Positions 41,932-53,764 of a stretch of DNA of 64,000 nucleotides are shown one piece after another. Each line of letters begins with the position of its first letter. Position 1 is the stretch's first letter. Source of the DNA: Falsirhodobacter halotolerans (GTDB lineage Bacteria > Pseudomonadota > Alphaproteobacteria > Rhodobacterales > Rhodobacteraceae); assembly GCF_022899245.1 (NCBI RefSeq), contig NZ_JALJAZ010000001.1, positions 104,501 to 168,500 on the forward strand, read 5' to 3'. The notes beneath the pieces are model-generated. The model did no database searches. It saw only the letters and a list, made by a program, of their open reading frames with translations, and was not told the origin of the DNA. Made by a program: the position numbers and the translations under genes.

Positions 41932-42723
41932 ATGGATTTCGAGACGCTGATGCCCACCTTGCGGACCCTCGCGCTTGGCGCGGGCGACCGGATCATGGAA
42001 ATTTACGAATCGCCCGATTTCGACGTGCGGTCCAAATCTGACGACAGCCCCGTCACGGCGGCGGACGAGGCGGCGGACGCCTTCATCAGCGAAGGGCTGC
42101 GCAAGGCCTTTCCCGATGTGACCCTGATCACCGAAGAGCAGGCCGACAGCCACGCCCTGACCGCCAGCACCTTCCTGATCGTCGATCCGCTGGACGGGAC
42201 CAAGGATTTCGTGCAGCGGCGCGGCGATTTCACCGTCAACATCGCCTTCGTGCAGGACGGCGTTCCGGTGCGCGGCGTGGTCTATGCCCCCGCCAAGAAG
42301 CGCCTGTTCTGGACACGGCCCGACGGCACCTCGGTCGAGGAGACGGGCGATCTGGACAAGGATACGGTGGGCGACCTCGTACCGCTGCGCGTCTCCACCC
42401 CCGACAACGGGGCGCTGATGGTGGTGGCGTCGAAATCCCACCGCGATCAGGCGACGGACGATTACATCGGCAAATACGCGGTGCGCGACATGACCAGCGC
42501 GGGATCGAGCCTGAAGTTCTGTCTGGTGGCCACGGGCGAGGCCGACATCTATCCCCGTCTGGGCCGCACGATGGAATGGGATACGGCGGCGGGCGATGCC
42601 GTGTTGCGCGGCGCGGGCGGTCAGGTCGTGCGGTTCGATGACCAATCCGTCCTGACATATGGCAAGGCGGGCTGGGACAACCCGTTCTTCATCGCCCATG
42701 CCCCCGGCGTGGAGTTGAAGTGA
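41932..42723 (+). CDS. cysQ: 3'(2'),5'-bisphosphate nucleotidase CysQ
   Basis: 263-aa member of the inositol monophosphatase-like, Mg2+-dependent phosphatases. Metal-binding motifs: ITEEQA, DPLDGTKDF and WDTAAGDAVLRGAGG. CysQ hydrolyses PAP, the by-product of sulfate assimilation and of sulfotransferases. Its position between a polysaccharide exporter, kdsB and the sulfotransferase-containing cluster at 44555-49790 makes PAP removal a sensible job here. The stop overlaps the kdsB start (TGATG). Confidence 0.93.
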   Translation: MDFETLMPTLRTLALGAGDRIMEIYESPDFDVRSKSDDSPVTAADEAADAFISEGLRKAFPDVTLITEEQADSHALTASTFLIVDPLDGTKDFVQRRGDFTVNIAFVQDGVPVRGVVYAPAKKRLFWTRPDGTSVEETGDLDKDTVGDLVPLRVSTPDNGALMVVASKSHRDQATDDYIGKYAVRDMTSAGSSLKFCLVATGEADIYPRLGRTMEWDTAAGDAVLRGAGGQVVRFDDQSVLTYGKAGWDNPFFIAHAPGVELK

Positions 42724-43511
42724 TGTCCGTTCTCATCGCGATTCCCGCGCGCTACGCCTCCACCCGCTATCCGGGCAAGCCGCTGGTGTCCCTGCGGGGG
42801 GCGGATGGCGACAAGACCCTGATCCAGCGCAGCTGGGAGGCGGCGATGGCCGTCGCCGGCGTGGACCGCGTGGTGGTGGCGACCGACGACGACCGCATCC
42901 GCGATCACGCGCAGGGCTTCGGGGCGGAGGTGGTGATGACCTCGCCCGCCTGCCGCAACGGCACCGAACGCTGCGCCGAGGTGGCGGCGCAGGTGTCGGA
43001 TCACGACATCATCGTCAATCTTCAGGGCGACGCCCCCCTGACCCCGGCTTGGTTCGTGGAGGATCTTGTGGCCGGCCTGCGCGCACATCCCGAAGCGGCG
43101 GTGGCCACCCCCGTCCTGCGCTGCGACGGGGCCGCGCTGAACGGGTTTCTGGAGGATCGCCGCGCGGGCCGGGTGGGGGGCACCACGGCGGTGTTCGACG
43201 CGCGCCGCCACGGGCTCTATTTCTCCAAGGAGGTGATCCCCTTCACCTCCCGCACCTATGCCGAGGATGAGGCGACGCCGGTGTTCCACCATGTGGGCGT
43301 CTATGCCTATCGCCCCGACGCGCTGACCGCCTATGGCACATGGCCGACCGGCCCGCTGGAGGAGTTGGAGGGGCTGGAGCAGTTGCGGTTTCTGGAAAAC
43401 GGCACCCCCATCCTGTGCGTGGAAGTGGAAGGGCGGGGCCGCGTGTTCTGGGAATTGAACAATCCGGCAGATGTTCCACGAATTGAACGGGTTCTTCAGG
43501 CGGGCGGATGA
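42723..43511 (+). CDS. kdsB: 3-deoxy-manno-octulosonate cytidylyltransferase-like protein (KdsB family, divergent)
   Basis: 262-aa nucleotidyltransferase: IPARYASTRYPGKPL, VVVATDDDRI, RNGTERCAEV, then NLQGDAPLTP where E. coli KdsB has NVQGDEP, and GPLEELEGLEQLRFLENG. The fold and motifs fit CMP-Kdo synthetase, but the Glu to Ala change in QGDEP and the neighbours (export permease, cysQ, galU) suggest a capsule-type Kdo or related sugar rather than the core-LPS enzyme. ATG 42723 overlaps the cysQ stop; GTG 42720 is also in frame. The core-path kdsD is elsewhere (52802). Confidence 0.82.
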   Translation: MSVLIAIPARYASTRYPGKPLVSLRGADGDKTLIQRSWEAAMAVAGVDRVVVATDDDRIRDHAQGFGAEVVMTSPACRNGTERCAEVAAQVSDHDIIVNLQGDAPLTPAWFVEDLVAGLRAHPEAAVATPVLRCDGAALNGFLEDRRAGRVGGTTAVFDARRHGLYFSKEVIPFTSRTYAEDEATPVFHHVGVYAYRPDALTAYGTWPTGPLEELEGLEQLRFLENGTPILCVEVEGRGRVFWELNNPADVPRIERVLQAGG

Positions 43512-43591: not shown

Positions 43592-43620
43592 TTGCAAGAT
43601 ATACCGGCGCACCCTTAACA
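43592..43620 (+). promoter_or_regulatory. Promoter of galU
   Basis: TTGCAA and TTAACA are separated by 17 bp about 39 nt upstream of the galU ATG. The -10 box is part of a 12-bp perfect palindrome described separately. Confidence 0.5.
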
Positions 43621-43626
43621 TGTTAA
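43615..43626. promoter_or_regulatory. Palindromic operator-like site over the galU -10 box
   Basis: TTAACATGTTAA is a perfect 12-bp inverted repeat that covers the putative -10 element and about the start of transcription. A bound dimeric regulator there would block RNA polymerase. No regulator is identified. Confidence 0.45.
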
Positions 43627-43658
43627 AATCCCGCGTATCTGCGCAAAAAGTGAGAGTC

Positions 43659-44552
43659 ATGAGCATCAAAAAGGTCACCAAAGCCGTTTTCCCCGTCGCT
43701 GGCATGGGGACGCGATTCCTTCCGGCCACGAAATCGGTTCCGAAAGAGATCCTGTCGCTGGTGGACCGACCGCTGGTGCAATACGCCATCGACGAAGCCC
43801 GCGCCGCCGGGATCGAGGAGTTCATCTTCGTCACCTCGCGCGGGAAATCGGCGCTTGAGGATTATTTCGACGTCTCGCCCACGCTGGAAGCCTCGCTCAA
43901 GGCGTCCGGCAAGGACGAGCTTCTGGACATCCTGAACTCCACCAACATGGATGACGGCAAGATCGCCTATGTTCGCCAGCACCGCGCGCTGGGTCTGGGC
44001 CACGCCGTCTGGTGTGCCCGCCGCCTGATCGGGGACGAGCCGTTTGCCGTCATGCTGCCCGATGACGTCATCACCGGCGACGTGCCCTGCCTGAAGCAGA
44101 TGGTGCAGGCCTATGAGAAAACCGGCGGCAACATCGTGGCCGCGATGGAGGTGCCGGTCGAGGCGACGAAATCCTATGGCATCCTGGACGTGTCCGAAGA
44201 CAACGGATCGACCGTGCGCGTGAAGGGCATGGTGGAAAAGCCGAAGTCGAACCCGCCGTCGAACCTGGCCGTGATCGGTCGTTACATCCTGACGCCGTCG
44301 GTTCTGGACACGCTGGACAAGAAGGAAACCGGCGCAGGTGGGGAAATCCAGCTGACCGACGCCATCGCCCGCGAGATCGAGACGAAGAACAACGTCTATG
44401 GCTTCCGCTTCAAGGGCGAGCGGTATGACTGCGGCTCCAAAGCAGGCTTCCTTCAGGCGACCGTCGCCTTCGGCCTGGCCCGCGACGACCTGCGCGACGA
44501 ATTCAGCCAGTTCCTGAACGACGTCGTGTCCTCCAGCAAGACCGCGCAATAA
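43659..44552 (+). CDS. galU: UTP-glucose-1-phosphate uridylyltransferase
   Basis: 297-aa enzyme making UDP-glucose from UTP and glucose-1-P for surface polysaccharides and lipids. Motifs: FPVAGMGTRFLPATKSVPKE, VMLPDDVI, KGMVEKP and GLGHAVWCAR. Start at 43659 gives the family length. It leads a run of glycan genes: the next start (GTG 44555) follows its stop by two bases. Confidence 0.96.
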   Translation: MSIKKVTKAVFPVAGMGTRFLPATKSVPKEILSLVDRPLVQYAIDEARAAGIEEFIFVTSRGKSALEDYFDVSPTLEASLKASGKDELLDILNSTNMDDGKIAYVRQHRALGLGHAVWCARRLIGDEPFAVMLPDDVITGDVPCLKQMVQAYEKTGGNIVAAMEVPVEATKSYGILDVSEDNGSTVRVKGMVEKPKSNPPSNLAVIGRYILTPSVLDTLDKKETGAGGEIQLTDAIAREIETKNNVYGFRFKGERYDCGSKAGFLQATVAFGLARDDLRDEFSQFLNDVVSSSKTAQ

Positions 44553-44554
44553 AG

Positions 44555-45637
44555 GTGGGGCGTCGGGGGCCCGGCACCCCGACGCCGGCCGCGGGGATTC
44601 TGGAACTTCCGCCTTTGACGCCATCCGTGCAGACCGCGCGGGTGGCGTTCGCCTTGCGGTGGAAGCGCCGTCGCCTGTTGTGGCGCGCCTTTCGCAGCCG
44701 GGGCGACCTTGTGCCCGATCGCGACCGCACCGCGCAGATACGCCGCGACACGATTCTGGGTTTCGCCTGTGTGCGCAACGAGGCGGCGCGCCTGCCCTAT
44801 TTTCTGGACCATGTCCGCCGTCTGGGCGTCGGGCATCTTCTGATCGTGGACAATGACAGCACCGACGGCACGCAGGACCTTCTGCGGAGCCAACCCGACG
44901 TGTCGCTGTGGACCACCACGGCGGGATACAAGGCGGCGCGCTTCGGCGTGAACTGGACCACCTGGCTGCAGATGCGGTTCGGCCACGGGCATTGGTGCCT
45001 GACGCTGGATGCGGACGAGTTGCTGATCTATCCCCATTGGCAGACGCGAGATCTGCGCGCGCTGACCGGCTGGCTGGACGATCACGGGCAGGACATGTTT
45101 CCCGCCATGATGCTGGACCTGTTTCCCAAAGGGCCACTGGACCGCGCGCCGCACCGGCCGGGCGACGATCCGACGCGGCACCTGTGCTGGTTCGACCACG
45201 GCAACTATTCGGTGCAGGTCCAGCCGCGTATGCGCAACTTCTGGATCCAGGGGGGGCCGCGCAGCCGCGCGCTTCTGGCTGATCCCCGGCGCGGTCCCAC
45301 CCTGAACAAGGTGCCGCTGATCCGCTGGCGCCGCCATTACGCCTATGTCAATTCGACGCATTCGGTCCTGCCGCGTCGCCTGAACCGATTCTATGCCGAA
45401 GACGGGGGCGAGATGCCGTCCGGGCTTTTGCTGCACACGAAGTTCCTGAACACCGCCCCCGCCCGCGCCCGCGAAGAAAAAGCGCGCGGCGAACATTTTT
45501 TCGACGCCAGTTTTTATCAAGACTACTATGATGTTGTGGCATCGGGGCCTGATCTCTGGCATCCCTGTGCGGAACGATTGCGGGGATGGCGGCATCTGGA
45601 GGCGCTGGGCCTTATGTCACGCGGGGGGTGGGCCTGA
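44555..45637 (+). CDS. Glycosyltransferase family 2-like protein, first of a tandem pair
   Basis: 360-aa protein with a GT-A style core: CVRNEAARLPYFLDHVRRLGV, IVDNDSTDGTQDLL, CLTLDADELLIYP (DxD-like), WIQGGPRSRA and a C-terminal WRHLEALGLMSRGGWA. The N-terminal about 60 residues are basic and poorly conserved. Start is uncertain: GTG 44555 has no good RBS because it follows the galU stop; TTG 44615 and GTG 44627 are in frame. The gene is paralogous to the next one through the whole core. No signal peptide; acts in the cytoplasm. Donor and acceptor unknown. Confidence 0.82.
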   Translation: MGRRGPGTPTPAAGILELPPLTPSVQTARVAFALRWKRRRLLWRAFRSRGDLVPDRDRTAQIRRDTILGFACVRNEAARLPYFLDHVRRLGVGHLLIVDNDSTDGTQDLLRSQPDVSLWTTTAGYKAARFGVNWTTWLQMRFGHGHWCLTLDADELLIYPHWQTRDLRALTGWLDDHGQDMFPAMMLDLFPKGPLDRAPHRPGDDPTRHLCWFDHGNYSVQVQPRMRNFWIQGGPRSRALLADPRRGPTLNKVPLIRWRRHYAYVNSTHSVLPRRLNRFYAEDGGEMPSGLLLHTKFLNTAPARAREEKARGEHFFDASFYQDYYDVVASGPDLWHPCAERLRGWRHLEALGLMSRGGWA

Positions 45638-45680
45638 TCATGCCGGACACGGGACATGACATCCGAATTCCGACCGAGGT

Positions 45681-46697
45681 GTGCGTTTGGGGCTGAAACG
45701 AACGATCGACCTGCGCGTTCGGCGCGAATGGCACCGCCTGCGGGCCTGGCGCCGTCTGGCGGACCTGAAGGGCGTGGCCAATCGCACGGGCCGCATCCAG
45801 CGGGGCGATATCCTGCTGTTCTGCACCTTGCGCAACGAACGCATCCGCCTGCCGTATTTCTTCGACTACTATCGGCGGATGGGGGTCAACCACTTCCTGT
45901 TCGTGGACAATGGCAGCGATGACGGCACCCGCGACTATCTGGTCCGGCAGGAGGACGCCTCGGTCTGGACCACCACCGCAAGCTATCGCCGGGCGCATTT
46001 CGGGGTGGACTGGCTGAACGGGTTGCAGGGCCGGTTCGGGCACAATCACTGGTGCCTGACGGTGGATGCCGACGAATTCCTCGTCTATCCCTTCTGCGAC
46101 ACGCGCCCCTTGCGCGCGCTGACCGACTGGCTGCAAAGCTGTTCCATCCGGTCGATGTCGGCGATGATGCTGGACATGTATCCCAAAGGGTCCATCGGCG
46201 CGAAACCCTATCACGAAGGGCAGAATCCGTTCGAGATCGCGGAATGGTTCGACCCCGGCAATTACCAGATCAGCCGCAACGGCCAATATGGGAATGTCTG
46301 GATCCAGGGCGGGCCGCGCGGGCGGGCCTTTTTCGGCGACGCGCCCTATTCCGCGCCGGCGCTGAACAAGATCCCGCTGGTGCGGTGGAACCGCCGCTAC
46401 GCCTATATCAGTTCCACCCACATGATGCTGCCGCGCGGCCTGAACAGCACCTATGACCGCTGGGGCGGTGAACAGGTATCGGGATGCCTGATGCATGCCA
46501 AGTTCATCGACACGTTCGGTGCCAAGGCGCAGGAGGAGATGCGTCGGGGCGAGCATTACGCCCAAAGCCGCGAATATGCCGCCTATCGCGAACGGATCGA
46601 GGCCGAACCCGACCTGTGGACGCGGTGGAGCGAGCGTTACGTCAACTGGCGCCAGCTGGAGATATTGGGCCTTATTTCCAAGGGGAACTGGGCATGA
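45681..46697 (+). CDS. Glycosyltransferase family 2-like protein, second of a tandem pair
   Basis: 338-aa paralogue of the preceding protein: TLRNERIRLPYFFDYYRRMGV, FVDNGSDDGTRDYL, CLTVDADEFLVYP, WIQGGPRGRA, STHMMLPRGLN and a closing LEILGLISKGNWA. GTG start at 45681 directly follows CGAGGT; TTG 45687 has better spacing. The stop overlaps the GT14-like gene by 4 nt. Shared blocks across the length show gene duplication, with divergence mainly at the N-terminus and around the acceptor-side segments, so the two may act on different acceptors. Confidence 0.85.
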   Translation: MRLGLKRTIDLRVRREWHRLRAWRRLADLKGVANRTGRIQRGDILLFCTLRNERIRLPYFFDYYRRMGVNHFLFVDNGSDDGTRDYLVRQEDASVWTTTASYRRAHFGVDWLNGLQGRFGHNHWCLTVDADEFLVYPFCDTRPLRALTDWLQSCSIRSMSAMMLDMYPKGSIGAKPYHEGQNPFEIAEWFDPGNYQISRNGQYGNVWIQGGPRGRAFFGDAPYSAPALNKIPLVRWNRRYAYISSTHMMLPRGLNSTYDRWGGEQVSGCLMHAKFIDTFGAKAQEEMRRGEHYAQSREYAAYRERIEAEPDLWTRWSERYVNWRQLEILGLISKGNWA

Positions 46698-48391
46698 GCG
46701 TCGGATTCGTCATGTTGTGCCACACCGCGCTGGACCGCGTGGCGCAGGTGGCGCGCCATTGGGCCGAACAGGGCTGCCCGGTGGTGATCCATGTGGACAG
46801 CCGCGTGCGCCCGCGCGAGTTGCGCGACATGAAGAAAAGCCTGGACGACATGCGCAAGCTGATCCGGTTCAGCCCCCGCTATCGCTGCGAATGGGGGGGG
46901 TGGAACCTTGTGGCCGCCACGCAGGCCGCCTCGCAGATGATGTTGCGGCAGTTTCCGGGGGTGCGCCATGTCTACCTGACCTCGGGGGCGTGTTTGCCGT
47001 TGCGTCCGGCGGCGGATCTTGTCGCCTATCTGAACGAACGGCCCGAGACGGATTTCATCGAATCGGTCATGACCGAGGAGGTGGGCTGGACCATCGGCGG
47101 GCTGAACATCGAACGGTTCCGGCTGTTCTTCCCCTTTTCCTGGCGCCGAAACCGGCGTGTGTTCGATATCGCCACACGGATGCAGCAACGGCTGGGCGTG
47201 CGGCGGCGCATCCCGCAGGGGATCGTGCCGCATCTGGGCAGCCAATGGTGGTGCCTGACGCGCAAGACGCTGCTGGCCATTCTGGACAGCCCCGAACGCG
47301 TCCGCCACGATCGGTATTTCCGCCGGGTGTGGATCCCCGATGAAAGTTACTTCCAAACTCTGGTTCGCCGGTATTCCACCGATGTCGAAAGCCGGTCCCT
47401 GACGCTGTTCAAGTTCGATTTTCAGGGCAAGCCCCACATCTTCTATGACGATCACCTGTCGCTTCTGCGCCGGTCGGATTGCTTTGTGGCGCGCAAGGCC
47501 TGGGCCCATGCCGACCGGCTTTACGACCATTTCCTGTCCCCGGCGGTGGCCGAGGATCAGCGCTCCGATCCTAATCCGGGGCGGATCGACCGGCTGTTCA
47601 GCGCCGCAAAGGAACGGCGTGTGCGGGGGCGGGCGGGTCTGTACATGCAAAGCCGCTTTCCCGTGTCGAATTTCGAGAATGGCCGCACGGCGATGCCCTA
47701 TTCGGTGCTGCAAGGGTTTGCCGAACTGATGCCGGATTTCCCCGATTGGCTGACCACGATGACCGAAACCCGTGTGCACGGCCATCTGTTCGGGCCGGAG
47801 CGGGTGGAATTCGCGGGCGGCCAATCGGTCTTCCGCGGCGGGCTGTCCGACAGTGCCAAGCTGCGCGACTACAATCCCAAAAGCTTCCTGACCAGCCTGA
47901 TCTGGAACACGCGGCCCCGGCGGCAGTGCTTCATGTTCGGCCCGGCCGACAACCAGACGCTGAACGGCTTCATGGCCGCCGATCCCAACGCGCAGATCTC
48001 GATCGTGTCGGGGGCCTGGGCCGTTCCGCTCTATCGTTCGGGCCTGCCCTTTTCGGATATCCGGCGCGAAGCGGCGCGGCTGCAACGGGTGGAGATGGAG
48101 TTTCTGGATCTGTTGGAACAGCATTGGGTCAAGGCGCGGGTGCGGATCTGGCCGCTGGCTACCTTTCTCGACAAACCGACCGAGCCGCTGCAGACCATCA
48201 TCGAGGAAATCGCCCCGCGCCTGCGCCCCCGTCTGACAAGCGCCCCCAATCTGGTCGATCTGACAGGTTTCGGGCAGTTCCTTCAGGATTTGCGCAATCA
48301 GGGGATGCAGCCCATGGTCATGGGCGATTATCCGGCCAACGATATATTTCACAATCCCGACCGACAGGTCCGTCCGCATCTGGTGAGCTGA
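46694..48391 (+). CDS. Core-2/I-branching (GT14-like) glycosyltransferase with C-terminal extra domain
   Basis: 565-aa protein. Residues about 1-290 resemble bacterial core-2/I-branching or xylosyltransferase-like enzymes: GFVMLCHTALDRVAQ, VIHVDSRV, YLTSGACLPLRPAADLV, GSQWWCLTRKTL, IPDESYFQTLV. From about residue 300 comes a second domain (MPYSVLQGFAELMP, FRGGLSDSAKLRDYNP, FMFGPADNQTLNGF) of unknown function, possibly the DUF5928 type as recalled. Probably cytoplasmic glycan assembly. Four-nt overlap with the upstream glycosyltransferase and one base to the sulfotransferase. Confidence 0.8.
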   Translation: MSVGFVMLCHTALDRVAQVARHWAEQGCPVVIHVDSRVRPRELRDMKKSLDDMRKLIRFSPRYRCEWGGWNLVAATQAASQMMLRQFPGVRHVYLTSGACLPLRPAADLVAYLNERPETDFIESVMTEEVGWTIGGLNIERFRLFFPFSWRRNRRVFDIATRMQQRLGVRRRIPQGIVPHLGSQWWCLTRKTLLAILDSPERVRHDRYFRRVWIPDESYFQTLVRRYSTDVESRSLTLFKFDFQGKPHIFYDDHLSLLRRSDCFVARKAWAHADRLYDHFLSPAVAEDQRSDPNPGRIDRLFSAAKERRVRGRAGLYMQSRFPVSNFENGRTAMPYSVLQGFAELMPDFPDWLTTMTETRVHGHLFGPERVEFAGGQSVFRGGLSDSAKLRDYNPKSFLTSLIWNTRPRRQCFMFGPADNQTLNGFMAADPNAQISIVSGAWAVPLYRSGLPFSDIRREAARLQRVEMEFLDLLEQHWVKARVRIWPLATFLDKPTEPLQTIIEEIAPRLRPRLTSAPNLVDLTGFGQFLQDLRNQGMQPMVMGDYPANDIFHNPDRQVRPHLVS

Positions 48392-48392
48392 C

Positions 48393-49790
48393 ATGACGTT
48401 TACAAGCTTTGTCCTTTTCGCCGGAATGCGGACCGGCTCGAACTTCCTTGAGGCCAATCTGAACGCCTTCGACGGCCTGACCTGCCATGGCGAGGTGTTC
48501 AATTCCGGCTTCATGGGCAAACTGGGCCAGACCGAGATGTTCGGCATCGACATCGCCGCCCGCGACCGTGACCCGCACACTGTGCTGGCCGCCATGAAGA
48601 CGGGGGAGGGGTTGCAGGGGTTTCGCCAGTTTCAGGATCACGACACCCGCATCACGCAGGCCGTGCTGGACGATCCCACCTGTGCCAAGATCATCCTGAC
48701 CCGCAATCCGCTGGAATCCTATGTCTCGCTCTTGATCGCGCGGGAAACGGGGCAATGGAAGCTGACCCATGCGGGCAAGGCCCGGGGCGCGAAGGTGGTG
48801 TTCAACGCGCCGGGCTTCGTGGCCCATGTGGAGGGGCTGGGCCGCTTTTACGCCGATATCCTGCACCGCCTGCAGGTGTCCGGCCAGACGGCGTTCCACA
48901 TAGACTATGAGGATGTGCAGGATGTGGCCGTCCTGAACGGTCTGGCCAAGTTCCTGGGCATTCCCGCGCGGTTGCAGGAACTGGACGGCAAGCTGAAGAA
49001 GCAGAACCCCGATCCCCTGGCCGACAAGGTCGAAAACCCCAAGGCGGTGGAGGAGGCGCTGGCCCGTCTCGACCCGTTCCAGTTTTCGCGTGTGCCCAAT
49101 TTCGAACCGCGGCGGGGGGCGGCGGTGCCGACCTTTCTGGCCGCGACCGGGGCCCCGGCCCTCTATATGCCCACCCGCAACGGGCCGGATGCGCAGGTCG
49201 TGCAATGGCTGCGCGATCTGGGCGGAGATGTGGTGGAGAAGATGGATCAGCGCGCCTTGCGGGCGTGGCGCGGCGCGCATCCCGGCCATCGCAGCTTCAC
49301 CGTCCTGCGCCATCCGCTGGCCCGCGCCCACACCGCCTTCACCGATCAGATACTGACCAACGCGCTTGCGGGCATTCGCCAGCAGATGGTCCGTCGTTAT
49401 GACCTGCCCTTGCCGCCGCCGGGACAGGATATGGGGTTCGAGGCGCATCGCACCGCGTTCCTTGCGTTTCTGCGGTTCTTGAAACTGCATGTCGCGGGGC
49501 AAAGCGGGGTGCGCGCGGATGCCGGCATGGCGTCGCAGGCGGCGGTTCTGGAGGGGATGGGCGCGGTGTGCCAGCCGGATCTGATCCTGCGGGAATCGCG
49601 GCTGTCCGAAGGGCTGGCCTTCCTCGCCGCGCAGATCGACCATCCGTCGCCCGCGCTGATCCCGGCCCCGGCCGATGCCGCGATCCCTTTGTCCACCTTG
49701 GTCGATGACGAGATCGAGGCGGCCGCGCGCGAGGCGTATCACCGCGATTACGACCAATTCGGCTTCGGCGACTGGCGCGACGAAGGCTAG
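48393..49790 (+). CDS. NodH-like sulfotransferase, two tandem sulfotransferase-like domains
   Basis: 465-aa protein. The N-terminal half has the PAPS 5'-phosphosulfate loop AGMRTGSNFLEANLN and a 3'-phosphate-like motif ILTRNPLESYVSLL. The second half, from about residue 245, has TVLRHPLARAHTAF, a second 3'-phosphate-type motif, but no clear matching 5' loop. NodH-type enzymes sulfate glycan or lipid-linked oligosaccharides with PAPS. Gene order after two glycosyltransferases and a GT14-like enzyme points to sulfation of their product. It ends with a 4-nt overlap with convergent ptsN. Confidence 0.8.
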   Translation: MTFTSFVLFAGMRTGSNFLEANLNAFDGLTCHGEVFNSGFMGKLGQTEMFGIDIAARDRDPHTVLAAMKTGEGLQGFRQFQDHDTRITQAVLDDPTCAKIILTRNPLESYVSLLIARETGQWKLTHAGKARGAKVVFNAPGFVAHVEGLGRFYADILHRLQVSGQTAFHIDYEDVQDVAVLNGLAKFLGIPARLQELDGKLKKQNPDPLADKVENPKAVEEALARLDPFQFSRVPNFEPRRGAAVPTFLAATGAPALYMPTRNGPDAQVVQWLRDLGGDVVEKMDQRALRAWRGAHPGHRSFTVLRHPLARAHTAFTDQILTNALAGIRQQMVRRYDLPLPPPGQDMGFEAHRTAFLAFLRFLKLHVAGQSGVRADAGMASQAAVLEGMGAVCQPDLILRESRLSEGLAFLAAQIDHPSPALIPAPADAAIPLSTLVDDEIEAAAREAYHRDYDQFGFGDWRDEG

Positions 49791-50251
49791 GCCGCCTGCG
49801 ACGCCCGCGATTCGGTCAGGATGGCATAGAGTTTGGCCGGGTCGGTGTTGGCGCGCAGCTTCTGGCACACCTTCTGGTCGCGCATGGTGCGCGACACCAG
49901 CGCCAGCGCCTTCAAATGATCCACCCCGGAATCCTTCGGCGCGAACAGGGCAAACACCAGATCCACCGGCTGGCGGTCCACGCTGTCGTAATCCAGCGGT
50001 TTTTCCAGACGGATGAAAATGCCCTGGATGCCCGGCAGGTCGTGCAGCCGGGCATGGGGCAGGGCGATGCCGTGGCCCACACCGGTGGGGCCAAGGCTCT
50101 CACGCTCTTGCAGGCCATCGGTGGCGATGGCGGCGTTCAGGCCATAAGCACCGCCCGCAATGTCGCCCAATTCCTGGAACAGGCGCTTCTTGCTGGTGAT
50201 ATGGCCCAGGACACGCACGGCGTCGGGGGCGAGAATCTTGGTCAGTTCCAT
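49787..50251 (-). CDS. ptsN: PTS IIA-Ntr nitrogen-regulatory protein
   Basis: 154-aa EIIA-Ntr of the fructose/mannitol IIA fold, phosphorylated on the His of ALPHARL (about residue 66) by NPr/EI-Ntr. It regulates potassium, nitrogen and carbon functions. Family pattern: ELGDIAG, LGPTGVGHGIALPHARL, FALFAPK. Located in the usual place after hpf. No PTS sugar permease is nearby. Confidence 0.95.
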   Translation of the reverse strand: MELTKILAPDAVRVLGHITSKKRLFQELGDIAGGAYGLNAAIATDGLQERESLGPTGVGHGIALPHARLHDLPGIQGIFIRLEKPLDYDSVDRQPVDLVFALFAPKDSGVDHLKALALVSRTMRDQKVCQKLRANTDPAKLYAILTESRASQAA

Positions 50252-50954: not shown

Positions 50955-51683
50955 TCAGGTCAGGGTGAAGGTGTCGCCCAGATAGACCTGCCGCACCATC
51001 GGGTCGGCCACGATCTCGTCCGTGGTGCCGCTTTTCAGGATGGTGCCGTCATGCAGGATATAGGCGCGGTCGACGATGGCCAGCGTCTCGCGCACGTTAT
51101 GGTCGGTGATCAGGACGCCCAGACCCCGGCCTTTCAGGTCCTGCACCAGATGGCGAATCTCGGCCACGGCGATGGGATCGACCCCGGCAAAGGGTTCGTC
51201 CAGAAGGACATAGGCGGGGTCCGCCGCCAGACAGCGGGCGATCTCGGCCCGCCGCCGTTCGCCGCCCGACAGCGCCAGCGCAGGCGCGCGGCGGATATGG
51301 GTGATGGAAAACTCCGACAGCAGATCCTCAAGACGTTCCCGCCGCCGATGGGGGTCTTTCTCGCGGATCTCCAGCACGGCCAGGATGTTGTCCTCCACCG
51401 ACAGGCCGCGAAAGATCGACATCTCCTGCGGCAGATAGCCGATGCCCAACCGGGCGCGGCGATACATCGGCAGGGCGGTCACATCGCGCCCGTCAATGGT
51501 GATCGCGCCGCTTTCGGGCGTGACGAGACCCGCGATGGTATAAAAACAGGTGGTCTTGCCCGACCCGTTCGGCCCCAGAAGGGCCACGACCTCGCCCCGC
51601 CGCAGGGCCAGCGACACGTCGCGGATCACCGGACGGCGTTTGTAGCTTTTGCGGATGTTCGTGACCTGCAGCCCGTCGGTCAT
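50955..51683 (-). CDS. lptB: LPS export ABC transporter ATP-binding protein
   Basis: 242-aa ATPase of the Lpt system that powers LPS extraction from the inner membrane. Walker A GPNGSGKTT, signature LSGGERRRAE, Walker B YVLLDEPFAGVDPI, H-loop ITDHNVRETL. It would work with LptF/LptG (not in the window) and with LptC, LptA encoded just upstream. Its start overlaps the lptA stop by 4 nt. Confidence 0.97.
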   Translation of the reverse strand: MTDGLQVTNIRKSYKRRPVIRDVSLALRRGEVVALLGPNGSGKTTCFYTIAGLVTPESGAITIDGRDVTALPMYRRARLGIGYLPQEMSIFRGLSVEDNILAVLEIREKDPHRRRERLEDLLSEFSITHIRRAPALALSGGERRRAEIARCLAADPAYVLLDEPFAGVDPIAVAEIRHLVQDLKGRGLGVLITDHNVRETLAIVDRAYILHDGTILKSGTTDEIVADPMVRQVYLGDTFTLT

Positions 51684-52180
51684 TGGCGGGCGCCCGGCTG
51701 GAACAGGGTCTGGACCCGCCCCTCCATCCGGCCCGACCCGGACGCAAGGTCGATCGTCAGCCGATTGCCCGCGATGGTGCTGGACCCTTGCGTCAGAACC
51801 ACGTCCCCCGACAGCACGACCTGCCCCGAGGCGATGGTATAGCTGGCCTCGCGCCCCTCGGCCGCCAACGTCTCGTTGGCCAGCGTCACGCCGCCCGTCG
51901 CGTGCAGCGCGGTGATCTCGTTCTGGCTTTCGCCGTATTCCACCCGCACCTCGTTCGCCGCCATGCGCAACGCGCCCTGCGCCACGCGCACGTTGCCGGT
52001 GAAGGTCGCGGCACCCGCCGCCTGATCGACCGACAGCTGGTCGGCATCCACGCCGACCGGGGCGGAGGTGTCCTGCGCGGCGCCCCCAAGGTCGATCTGC
52101 GTATCCTGTGCCGTGGCCGCCACGGGCAGGGCAAGGGCGAAAGACAGGATCGTCGCTTTCAGCATGGAACTTCCGATCAT
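51680..52180 (-). CDS. lptA: LptA-type periplasmic LPS transport protein
   Basis: 166-aa OstA/LptA-domain protein with a signal peptide ending PVAATAQ (residue about 24). The rest forms a beta-jellyroll bridge segment (ATFTGNVRVAQGALRM, ANEVRVEY, GRMEGRVQTL). LptA links LptC to LptD across the periplasm. Short for the family, typical in alphaproteobacteria. Confidence 0.9.
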   Translation of the reverse strand: MIGSSMLKATILSFALALPVAATAQDTQIDLGGAAQDTSAPVGVDADQLSVDQAAGAATFTGNVRVAQGALRMAANEVRVEYGESQNEITALHATGGVTLANETLAAEGREASYTIASGQVVLSGDVVLTQGSSTIAGNRLTIDLASGSGRMEGRVQTLFQPGARQ

Positions 52181-52800
52181 GGTTGTGGTGCAGGGGTGTA
52201 TATCAGCTTGACGCCCCCGGTGAAGTCCAGACGATATTGCCCGCCCGTGTCCCCCGCCGGGTTCAGCGTCATTCCGCCCGCGGTCAGTTGCCCCATGGGC
52301 GCCTGCCCGGTGATGGGGCCGATGCCGGTCACCTGCGTGCGGTCCAGTTCGGCCACCGCCTCCGCCATGCGGATGTCATACCCGGTGGAGGTGTGCACCC
52401 GCACCTGCCCCGAAAAGGTCACGCGCTGGTTCGCATCGTCATAGGTGCCGGCGGCGGATTGCAGATGCGTGTCCACGCCGTCGGGGGTCGTCAGATCGGC
52501 CCGCAGCGCGCTGATCGTCGCGGGGCGCCCTTCGGCCGGGGGCCGCACCTCCGCCGCCGCGATGTTCAGCCGCGCCCCGTCCGAGGTCAGGCCCGACCAT
52601 GTGGGTTCGGTCAGGCGCGGGTCCATCGCGCGGCCCTGCACATCGACGTTGGAATAGGGGATCGCGTCCTGCGTGCCGACCGTGCGCGACACCAGAAAGA
52701 TCGTGGACAAAAGCGCCAGCGCCACCAGGGGAAGGGCGACCTTCAGCAGCTTCACCAGCTTGGTGTGCCGGTCCCCCGTTCTGCCCGCGATCCGCGCCAT
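52177..52800 (-). CDS. lptC: LPS export protein LptC
   Basis: 207-aa bitopic protein: N-terminal basic residues then one membrane helix (about residues 18-40, LLKVALPLVALALLSTIFLV), and a periplasmic beta-jellyroll (LRADLTTPDGVDTHLQSAAG, VTFSGQVRVHT). It receives LPS from LptFG and hands it to LptA. Overlaps lptA by 4 nt and lies 1 nt after kdsD. Confidence 0.92.
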   Translation of the reverse strand: MARIAGRTGDRHTKLVKLLKVALPLVALALLSTIFLVSRTVGTQDAIPYSNVDVQGRAMDPRLTEPTWSGLTSDGARLNIAAAEVRPPAEGRPATISALRADLTTPDGVDTHLQSAAGTYDDANQRVTFSGQVRVHTSTGYDIRMAEAVAELDRTQVTGIGPITGQAPMGQLTAGGMTLNPAGDTGGQYRLDFTGGVKLIYTPAPQP

Positions 52801-52801
52801 G

Positions 52802-53764
52802 TCAGGCCACCCCGGCGCGCAGGCAATCGTGGATATGGATCAGACCCACGGGACGGTCGTTCTCCACCACGAACAGGGCGGTGATCTTGCGGTCCTGCAT
52901 CACCGCCACGGCCTTTTCGGCCAGCGCGTCGGGGCCGATGGTGCGGGGGTCGGGGGTCATCACCTCGGCCGCCGTATGGGTCAGCAGGCCCTGCATGTGA
53001 CGGCGCAGGTCGCCATCGGTGACGATGCCCGCCAGACGGTCGCCGTCCAGCACGCCAAGCGTGCCGTAGCCCTTCCCGCTCATGACCAGCAGCGCCTCGG
53101 ACATGGGCAGGTCGGCGGCCACCAGCGGCAGGTCGGTGTGCATTAGGTCGGCCACGCGCGACAGGCGGGCCCCCAGCTTGCCGCCCGGATGAAAGATGCG
53201 GAACTGTTCGGGCGTGAAGCGGCGATGTTCCATCAGGGCCAGCGCCAGCGCGTCGCCCAAGGCCAGCGTCATGGTGGTGGAGGTGGTGGGCACCACGCCC
53301 GTGCCACAGGCCTCGGGCACCTGCGGCAGCACCAGCGCCACATCCGCCTGCCGCAGCAAGGTCGATTGCGGGCGCGAGGCGACGCCGATCATCGGGATGG
53401 AAAACCGGCGGGTATGGGCCACCAGATCGGCCAGCTCCGGCGTCTCGCCCGAATTGGACAGGACCAGCACCACGTCCTGATCGGTGATCATGCCCAGATC
53501 GCCGTGGCTGGCTTCCGCCGGATGCACGAAATGCGCGGGTGTCCCGGTAGAGGCGAAGGTGGCCGCGATCTTGCGCCCGACATGGCCGGATTTGCCCATG
53601 CCCGACACGATGACGCGCCCCTTGGCCCCCAGGATCAGGTCCACCGCCCGGGCAAAGCCGTCATCCAGCGCGCCTTCAAGCGCCACCAGCGCCTGCGCCT
53701 CGATCCCGATCACGCGGCGGGCGGTGGCAAGATAATCAGTGGTGGAAGATGTCATTCGGCTCAT
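52802..53764 (-). CDS. kdsD: D-arabinose-5-phosphate isomerase (KdsD/KpsF family)
   Basis: 320-aa enzyme converting ribulose-5-P to arabinose-5-P, the first step toward Kdo. N-terminal SIS domain (GKGRVIVSGMGKSGHVGRKIA-like, FVHPAEASHGDLGM, SNSGETPE, THSTTMTLALGDALA) and two C-terminal CBS domains (about 200-320). Start is taken at 53764; ATG 53755 is an alternative. Its start overlaps the end of rnd by about 29 nt. Confidence 0.94.
   Translation of the reverse strand: MSRMTSSTTDYLATARRVIGIEAQALVALEGALDDGFARAVDLILGAKGRVIVSGMGKSGHVGRKIAATFASTGTPAHFVHPAEASHGDLGMITDQDVVLVLSNSGETPELADLVAHTRRFSIPMIGVASRPQSTLLRQADVALVLPQVPEACGTGVVPTTSTTMTLALGDALALALMEHRRFTPEQFRIFHPGGKLGARLSRVADLMHTDLPLVAADLPMSEALLVMSGKGYGTLGVLDGDRLAGIVTDGDLRRHMQGLLTHTAAEVMTPDPRTIGPDALAEKAVAVMQDRKITALFVVENDRPVGLIHIHDCLRAGVA

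Follow-up and report, generated by a model that had tools for sequence, protein, structure and literature searches.

A family-wide cassette of glycosyltransferases and a NodH-type sulfotransferase in Rhodobacteraceae and its putative surface glycan product

What do glycosyltransferases and a sulfotransferase build when their genes lie side by side among lipopolysaccharide (LPS) genes, and do they act as one unit at all? This question was raised by a locus of Falsirhodobacter halotolerans at positions 44,555 to 49,790 of the window, the 64,000-nucleotide (nt) stretch of DNA analyzed here (assembly GCF_022899245.1, contig NZ_JALJAZ010000001.1, positions 104,501 to 168,500). The locus codes for two Glyco_tranf_2_4 (GT2_4) glycosyltransferases, here named GTA and GTB, a GT14 glycosyltransferase fused to a DUF5927 domain, and a two-domain sulfotransferase. 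As judged from sequence comparisons, GTB, GT14-DUF5927 and the sulfotransferase constitute a vertically inherited, Rhodobacteraceae-specific cassette among the genomes searched, near-universal in the family and present in about 96% of species. We give even chances to the reading that its product is a heptose-free LPS core, or an oligosaccharide linked to this core, which would be sulfated in the cytoplasm.

The first-pass annotation of the window had named co-occurrence of the four genes across Rhodobacterales as a check that could overturn the cassette idea. We examined 196 whole genomes sampled from this order, all of which were Rhodobacteraceae, from 88 genera. GTB was detected in 188 genomes (E < 1e-100), full-length GT14-DUF5927 in 188 and sulfotransferase orthologues in 187; DUF5927 itself was matched in 189, one of which (G075) contained a remnant only. 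Eight genomes, each of a different genus (G060, G075, G084, G093, G109, G140, G156 and G174), lacked GTB, the sulfotransferase and an intact GT14. The sole mismatch was G059, which has GTB and GT14 and lacks an orthologous sulfotransferase (its match at E 9e-12 was left out of the count, compared with 1e-150 or better elsewhere). Co-occurrence of GTB and the sulfotransferase was highly significant (Fisher's exact p 2e-13, with kinship ignored; the lacking genomes span eight genera), and none of the 196 genomes carried these two genes at separate loci without GT14. Among 289 Alphaproteobacteria genomes, four of them Rhodobacteraceae, DUF5927 was confined to these four, and the two-domain sulfotransferase was likewise found only in Rhodobacteraceae, with three other genomes matching its first domain partially.

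Gene order was analyzed in 120 loci, comprising 40 genus representatives and 80 named GTDB loci. GTB adjoined GT14 in all 120, and the sulfotransferase gene was present in 116. The GTB and GT14 genes overlapped by 4 nt in 52 of the 80 named loci, and the distance from GT14 to the sulfotransferase was 0-12 nt in nearly all of these. Thus, the GTB-GT14-sulfotransferase arrangement is beyond chance. Neighboring genes, counted in the 112-116 loci with room for each, were also frequently retained: upstream cysQ (109/112), galU (104/113) and kdsB (84/112), downstream lptB (93/114), and elsewhere around the cassette ptsN (100/116) and kdsD (66/112). In addition, distances of the cassette genes followed those of lptB and galU (r 0.43-0.67).

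Co-occurrence of GTB, GT14 and the sulfotransferase, which are kept or lost together, was therefore borne out, and the proposal failed for GTA. The position between galU (or galE) and GTB is a variable slot, which was occupied in the 120 loci by a GT2_4 enzyme in 50 and by a GT4-type enzyme in 59, the rest being other or empty. Since slot content varies in this way, GTA is outside the invariant core of the cassette.

Losses of the cassette were informative. In four genomes of four genera (G156, G093, G174 and G084), galU or galE faces ptsN directly, the whole slot-GTB-GT14-sulfotransferase block having been excised with both flanks kept. Such precise loss of a complete block indicates that the cassette acts as one unit. 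Decaying fragments of GTA and GT14 are left in G075, and ptsN lies in an unrelated neighborhood in the three further cassette-less genomes. In another set (L099, L104 of Tabrizicola oligotrophica, L166 and G059), the sulfotransferase alone was lost and ptsN directly follows GT14; therefore, sulfation looks like a late and dispensable step of the putative pathway, which could be dropped while the glycosyltransferases stay. We also observed apparent decay or interruption in loci L185 (G075), L077 (G133), L082 (G116) and L069 (G132), where GT14 and GTA occur as fragments, GT14 is interrupted by an in-frame TAG, DUF5927 is cut short or GTB is split; assembly errors are possible in these cases.

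Features of the locus in the window are as follows.

41932..42723, forward strand: cysQ, 3'(2'),5'-bisphosphate nucleotidase (TIGR01331, 255 bits, cut-off 228.8); flanking, conserved neighbor
42720..43511, forward strand: kdsB, CMP-Kdo synthetase (NF003950, 350.9 bits, cut-off 234); flanking
43620..44552, forward strand: galU, UTP-glucose-1-phosphate uridylyltransferase (TIGR01099, 330.9 bits, cut-off 326.8); flanking, UDP-glucose supply
44555..45637, forward strand: GTA, Glyco_tranf_2_4 glycosyltransferase in the variable slot (PF13704, 108 bits); start codon uncertain
45681..46697, forward strand: GTB, Glyco_tranf_2_4 glycosyltransferase, invariant member (PF13704, 113.7 bits)
46694..48391, forward strand: GT14 (Branch) glycosyltransferase fused to DUF5927 (both Pfam models matched; C2GnT-L fold)
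47681..48328, forward strand: core of DUF5927 (residues about 330-545 of GT14); candidate sulfotransferase-fold domain, degenerate and lacking the PAPS site
48393..49790, forward strand: two-domain sulfotransferase (AlphaFold2 model)
48393..49112, forward strand: sulfotransferase domain 1, residues 1-240; NodH/Stf0-type, predicted PAPS site intact
49122..49787, forward strand: sulfotransferase domain 2, residues 244-465; Sulfotransfer_2-like, PAPS residues degenerate
49787..50251, reverse strand: ptsN (PtsN model match); flanking, right boundary of the cassette
50955..53764, reverse strand: lptB, lptA, lptC and kdsD; LPS export and synthesis of 3-deoxy-D-manno-octulosonic acid (Kdo), flanking

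These coordinates agree with the first-pass description of four same-strand genes after galU, separated by gaps or overlaps of 1 to 43 nt: GTA follows galU after 2 nt and GTB follows GTA after 43 nt, GTB and GT14 share a 4-nt ATGA overlap, and the sulfotransferase begins 1 nt after GT14. The genes downstream on the opposite strand are ptsN, hpf, lptB, lptA, lptC, kdsD and rnd, among which lptB (TIGR04406, 364.9 bits), lptA (TIGR03002, 75.2 bits) and kdsD (TIGR00393 KpsF/KdsD, 295.5 bits) were matched by their models; lptC scored 31.2 bits with TIGR04409, below the cut-off of 38. The sulfotransferase gene and ptsN are convergent, and their ends, including the stop codons, overlap by 4 nt (window 49787-49790). 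The nearest named genome is that of Falsirhodobacter sp. alg1 (79% identity in GT14).

Both GT2-like proteins exceed the Glyco_tranf_2_4 cut-off (27.5 bits) and, as had been noted, they are paralogs, being 52% identical over 318 amino acids. The D129-x-D131 motif of GTB was kept in 116/116 relatives. For GTA, relatives point to a start about 15-25 codons downstream of the GTG at 44555, and a GTG at 44630 is a better fit to their length; for GTB, a TTG at 45687 may be an alternative start.

The key to a possible sulfated product is the fourth protein, which would require 3'-phosphoadenosine-5'-phosphosulfate (PAPS) as sulfate donor. No Pfam sulfotransferase model passed for this protein (PF03567 gave 18.1 bits against a cut-off of 22), and a PF00685 scan of the whole genome produced no match; Pfam scans by themselves would thus miss the enzyme. 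Its identity as a sulfotransferase follows from a NodH profile match, a match to a solved structure, and the fold. The AlphaFold2 model had two confident domains (mean predicted local distance difference test score, pLDDT, 91; predicted template modeling score 0.56), with low confidence at residues 236-242. The fold of domain 1 resembled that of Stf0 (Z 12.9; root mean square deviation, rmsd, 4.1 across 198 residues) and, at Z about 12, that of heparan 3-O-sulfotransferases, and its sequence matched PDB 9vki, annotated as 'LPS sulfotransferase NodH' (E 8e-13). The domain 1 profile also matched, over the full domain, a Mesorhizobium NodH whose gene adjoins nodC, nodI and cysD/N (50.9 bits). The 5'-phosphosulfate loop (MRTGSN, residues 12-17) and the 3'-phosphate site (R104 and S112) were invariant in 134/134 sequences. 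By predicted site and fold, domain 1 is a putative PAPS-dependent sulfotransferase of the NodH/Stf0 type, in agreement with the initial prediction of a two-domain NodH-like enzyme. Adenosine 5'-phosphosulfate kinase, needed for PAPS synthesis, was present in all 18 genomes scanned, including that of the window.

The second domain is different. Its profile matched a Paracoccus Sulfotransfer_2 protein (32.2 bits). However, its loop has no conserved K/R plus S/T, and the Ser of the 3'-phosphate site occurs in just 9/134 sequences. Since the PAPS residues are not kept, domain 2 is probably catalytically inactive.

GT14 is also a two-domain protein, as first described. A Branch domain (residues 31-242, 61.3 bits, cut-off 23.4) is followed by DUF5927 (residues 267-564, 456.6 bits). 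Residues 1-288 aligned with C2GnT-L (Z 24.5, rmsd 3.0, 267 residues), and the fold was also similar to that of xylosyltransferase 1 (Z 22.3). The PDE motif at residues 215-217, which by analogy with C2GnT-L presumably holds the catalytic Glu, was invariant in 143/143 sequences.

DUF5927 may be a further relative of sulfotransferases. Its predicted model has pLDDT values of 66-94 across residues 331-540 and low values at 287-329. The 13 main secondary-structure elements of the domain, helices and strands alike, follow the same order as those of sulfotransferase domain 1 at near-constant offsets (331-337, then 314-318), a short helix at 342-345 being excluded from the comparison. A profile-profile alignment of DUF5927 with the sulfotransferase by hhalign scored 31.0 (E 9e-4, probability 23%), whereas none of 60 block shuffles exceeded 25.2 and unrelated profiles reached about 20 at most. 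This alignment covers about 80 columns and pairs VHGHLF with CHGEVF; the PAPS residues are absent in the aligned stretch of DUF5927. No match was found between DUF5927 and Pfam sulfotransferase families, and its profile gave no significant score with single sulfotransferases by hmmsearch. The whole-protein fold search of GT14 returned no sulfotransferases, its matches spanning residues 1-290 only. The shared element order and the hhalign score are only suggestive of a dead sulfotransferase-fold domain.

How could these proteins work together? The cassette itself contains no priming transferase, flippase or polymerase, and therefore its acceptor must pre-exist. The same absence, together with kdsB, kdsD and lptABC as flanking genes, makes the LPS core the likeliest acceptor. 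In addition, the heptosyltransferase family PF01075 was absent in 17 of the same 18 genomes, and the remaining genome had a 33-residue match; a core built from non-heptose sugars would fit this lack of heptosyltransferases in the family. We suggest that the cytoplasmic glycosyltransferases would add sugars from nucleotide donors, for which galU and sometimes galE lie nearby, onto an existing lipid, most likely a heptose-free core on Kdo-lipid A. The N-terminal NodH/Stf0-type domain may then move sulfate from PAPS to the glycan as a late decoration, and the sulfated product would be exported by the Lpt system. The C-terminal domain of the sulfotransferase, and probably DUF5927 as well, may be non-catalytic modules that bind the acceptor or tether the enzymes to one another. 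A stronger version, in which the cassette has three sulfotransferase-fold domains with one alive, and DUF5927 and the dead domain 2 assemble into a complex for building and sulfating a surface glycan that defines the clade (the sulfated heptose-free LPS core), is conceivable and in our opinion doubtful.

Several points weigh against an LPS core and its putative enzyme complex. Proximity to LPS genes is no proof of function, and the ptsN-hpf-lptB order could just reflect ancient linkage. Eight lineages manage without a cassette, and several of these have kept galU and kdsB. A related pair of GT14 and GT2_4 genes in Rhizobiaceae is located in clusters of O-antigen or exopolysaccharide type, so an LPS core is not obligatory. 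Finally, kinship between DUF5927 and sulfotransferases is weak by sequence (hhalign probability 23-30%). The presence of cysQ just upstream had been taken as a further sign of sulfation; its position was confirmed, but it is not specific evidence, since genomes that have lost the sulfotransferase (L099, L104, L166, L179 and L180) still have cysQ next to kdsB/galU.

A sulfated surface polysaccharide or lipid-linked oligosaccharide had been the initial proposal, and a free polysaccharide is disfavored by co-location with kdsB, kdsD and lptABC. In its more general form, the cassette would contribute to a capsule, exopolysaccharide or lipid-linked oligosaccharide that carries sulfate, with genes for priming, flipping and polymerization elsewhere, which we consider somewhat unlikely. 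Relatives of GT14 and GT2_4 do occur in surface-polysaccharide clusters: one Shinella plasmid carries them close to rfbABCD, a second Shinella has them close to an export gene, and in Rhizobium tropici the two genes adjoin each other. Scattered systems are also known in the family: the capsule locus of R. capsulatus comprises rcc01081-01086, with wza/wzb/wzc elsewhere (PMC10218006). However, this capsule locus varies even among strains of one species (PMC10218006), whereas the cassette occurs in about 96% of species; it is flanked by LPS genes, and the loci examined had no gene for export or polymerization in the interval from galU to ptsN.

A sulfated glycolipid or glycoprotein is an unlikely product. 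Although sequence comparison places human xylosyltransferase 1, a protein-modifying enzyme, nearest to GT14 among solved structures (E 3.6e-7), the GT14 fold is at least as near to glycan-acting C2GnT-L (Z 24.5 versus 22.3), and neither a protein acceptor nor a lipid synthesis gene is linked to the cassette. Even though ptsN and hpf, with unrelated functions, are likewise in conserved order in many genomes, it is very improbable that the cassette genes are neighbors without a common pathway in an old frozen gene order, which is hard to reconcile with precise whole-cassette loss in four genera, since unconnected functions would not vanish together, and with the 4-nt GTB/GT14 overlap in most genomes.

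Comparison with known systems places the sulfated LPS core reading in context. In Sinorhizobium meliloti, sulfation of LPS by LpsS, an enzyme of the Stf0 family, is established (PMC12445080, citing Cronan and Keating 2004). Homology to NodH spans the whole of domain 1, in which the PAPS motifs are intact. However, NodH and LpsS are single-domain proteins, whereas the cassette enzyme has an additional degenerate Sulfotransfer_2-like domain and is locked into a glycosyltransferase cassette that is near-universal in one family. GT14 similarly shares with C2GnT-L and xylosyltransferase 1 a Branch domain above cut-off, the fold (Z 21-24) and the PDE motif, but differs in its fusion to DUF5927, a domain that the searched genomes contained in Rhodobacteraceae only.

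The rhizobial pairs, on Shinella plasmids and R. tropici pRtrCIAT899c, have GT14 beside a GT2_4 enzyme (L197:4509-7332; L196:6992-9716; L205:8992-11713). Their GT14 C-termini are weakly DUF5927-like (22 and 21 bits; cut-off 27). In contrast to the cassette, they are plasmid-borne, apparently rare and located in O-antigen-like clusters; gene order is reversed in Shinella, where a nearby sulfotransferase is of another type and lies outside the gene run of the pair. A search for the rhizobial DUF5927-like C-terminus in the 289 class genomes found no match, which shows little as it had no positive control. A second GT14 enzyme in the F. halotolerans genome is of the DUF5928 type by size and neighbors (L203:5856-7433; G000:C1:517855-519432). 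This type also has a lineage-specific C-terminal domain, and a Paracoccus copy on plasmid pNSM5TCa adjoins a Sulfotransfer_2 gene; it differs in the domain itself, in its neighbors (a HIT-family gene and polA) and in having no GT2_4 partner. It may represent a second pairing of GT14 with a sulfotransferase in the family. Glycosyltransferases and a NodH-type sulfotransferase are a known kind of combination, here with an unusual domain make-up. Literature searches on DUF5927, Rhodobacteraceae LPS and sulfotransferases, and NodH in Roseobacter revealed no paper on this locus and none that names DUF5927, which is weak evidence because many older LPS-structure papers are not covered; searches on roseophage resistance and R. 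sphaeroides envelope mutants likewise revealed nothing on it.

This uncharacterized cassette probably shapes the outer surface of well-studied and abundant Rhodobacteraceae, including marine roseobacters, Paracoccus and Rhodobacter. Genomes that have lost either the whole cassette or the sulfotransferase alone provide ready-made natural controls. If the product is a sulfated LPS core, the cassette would help explain how the family assembles LPS without heptosyltransferases, would assign a function to DUF5927, and would open to genetic study how phages, gene transfer agents and hosts recognize the cell surface.

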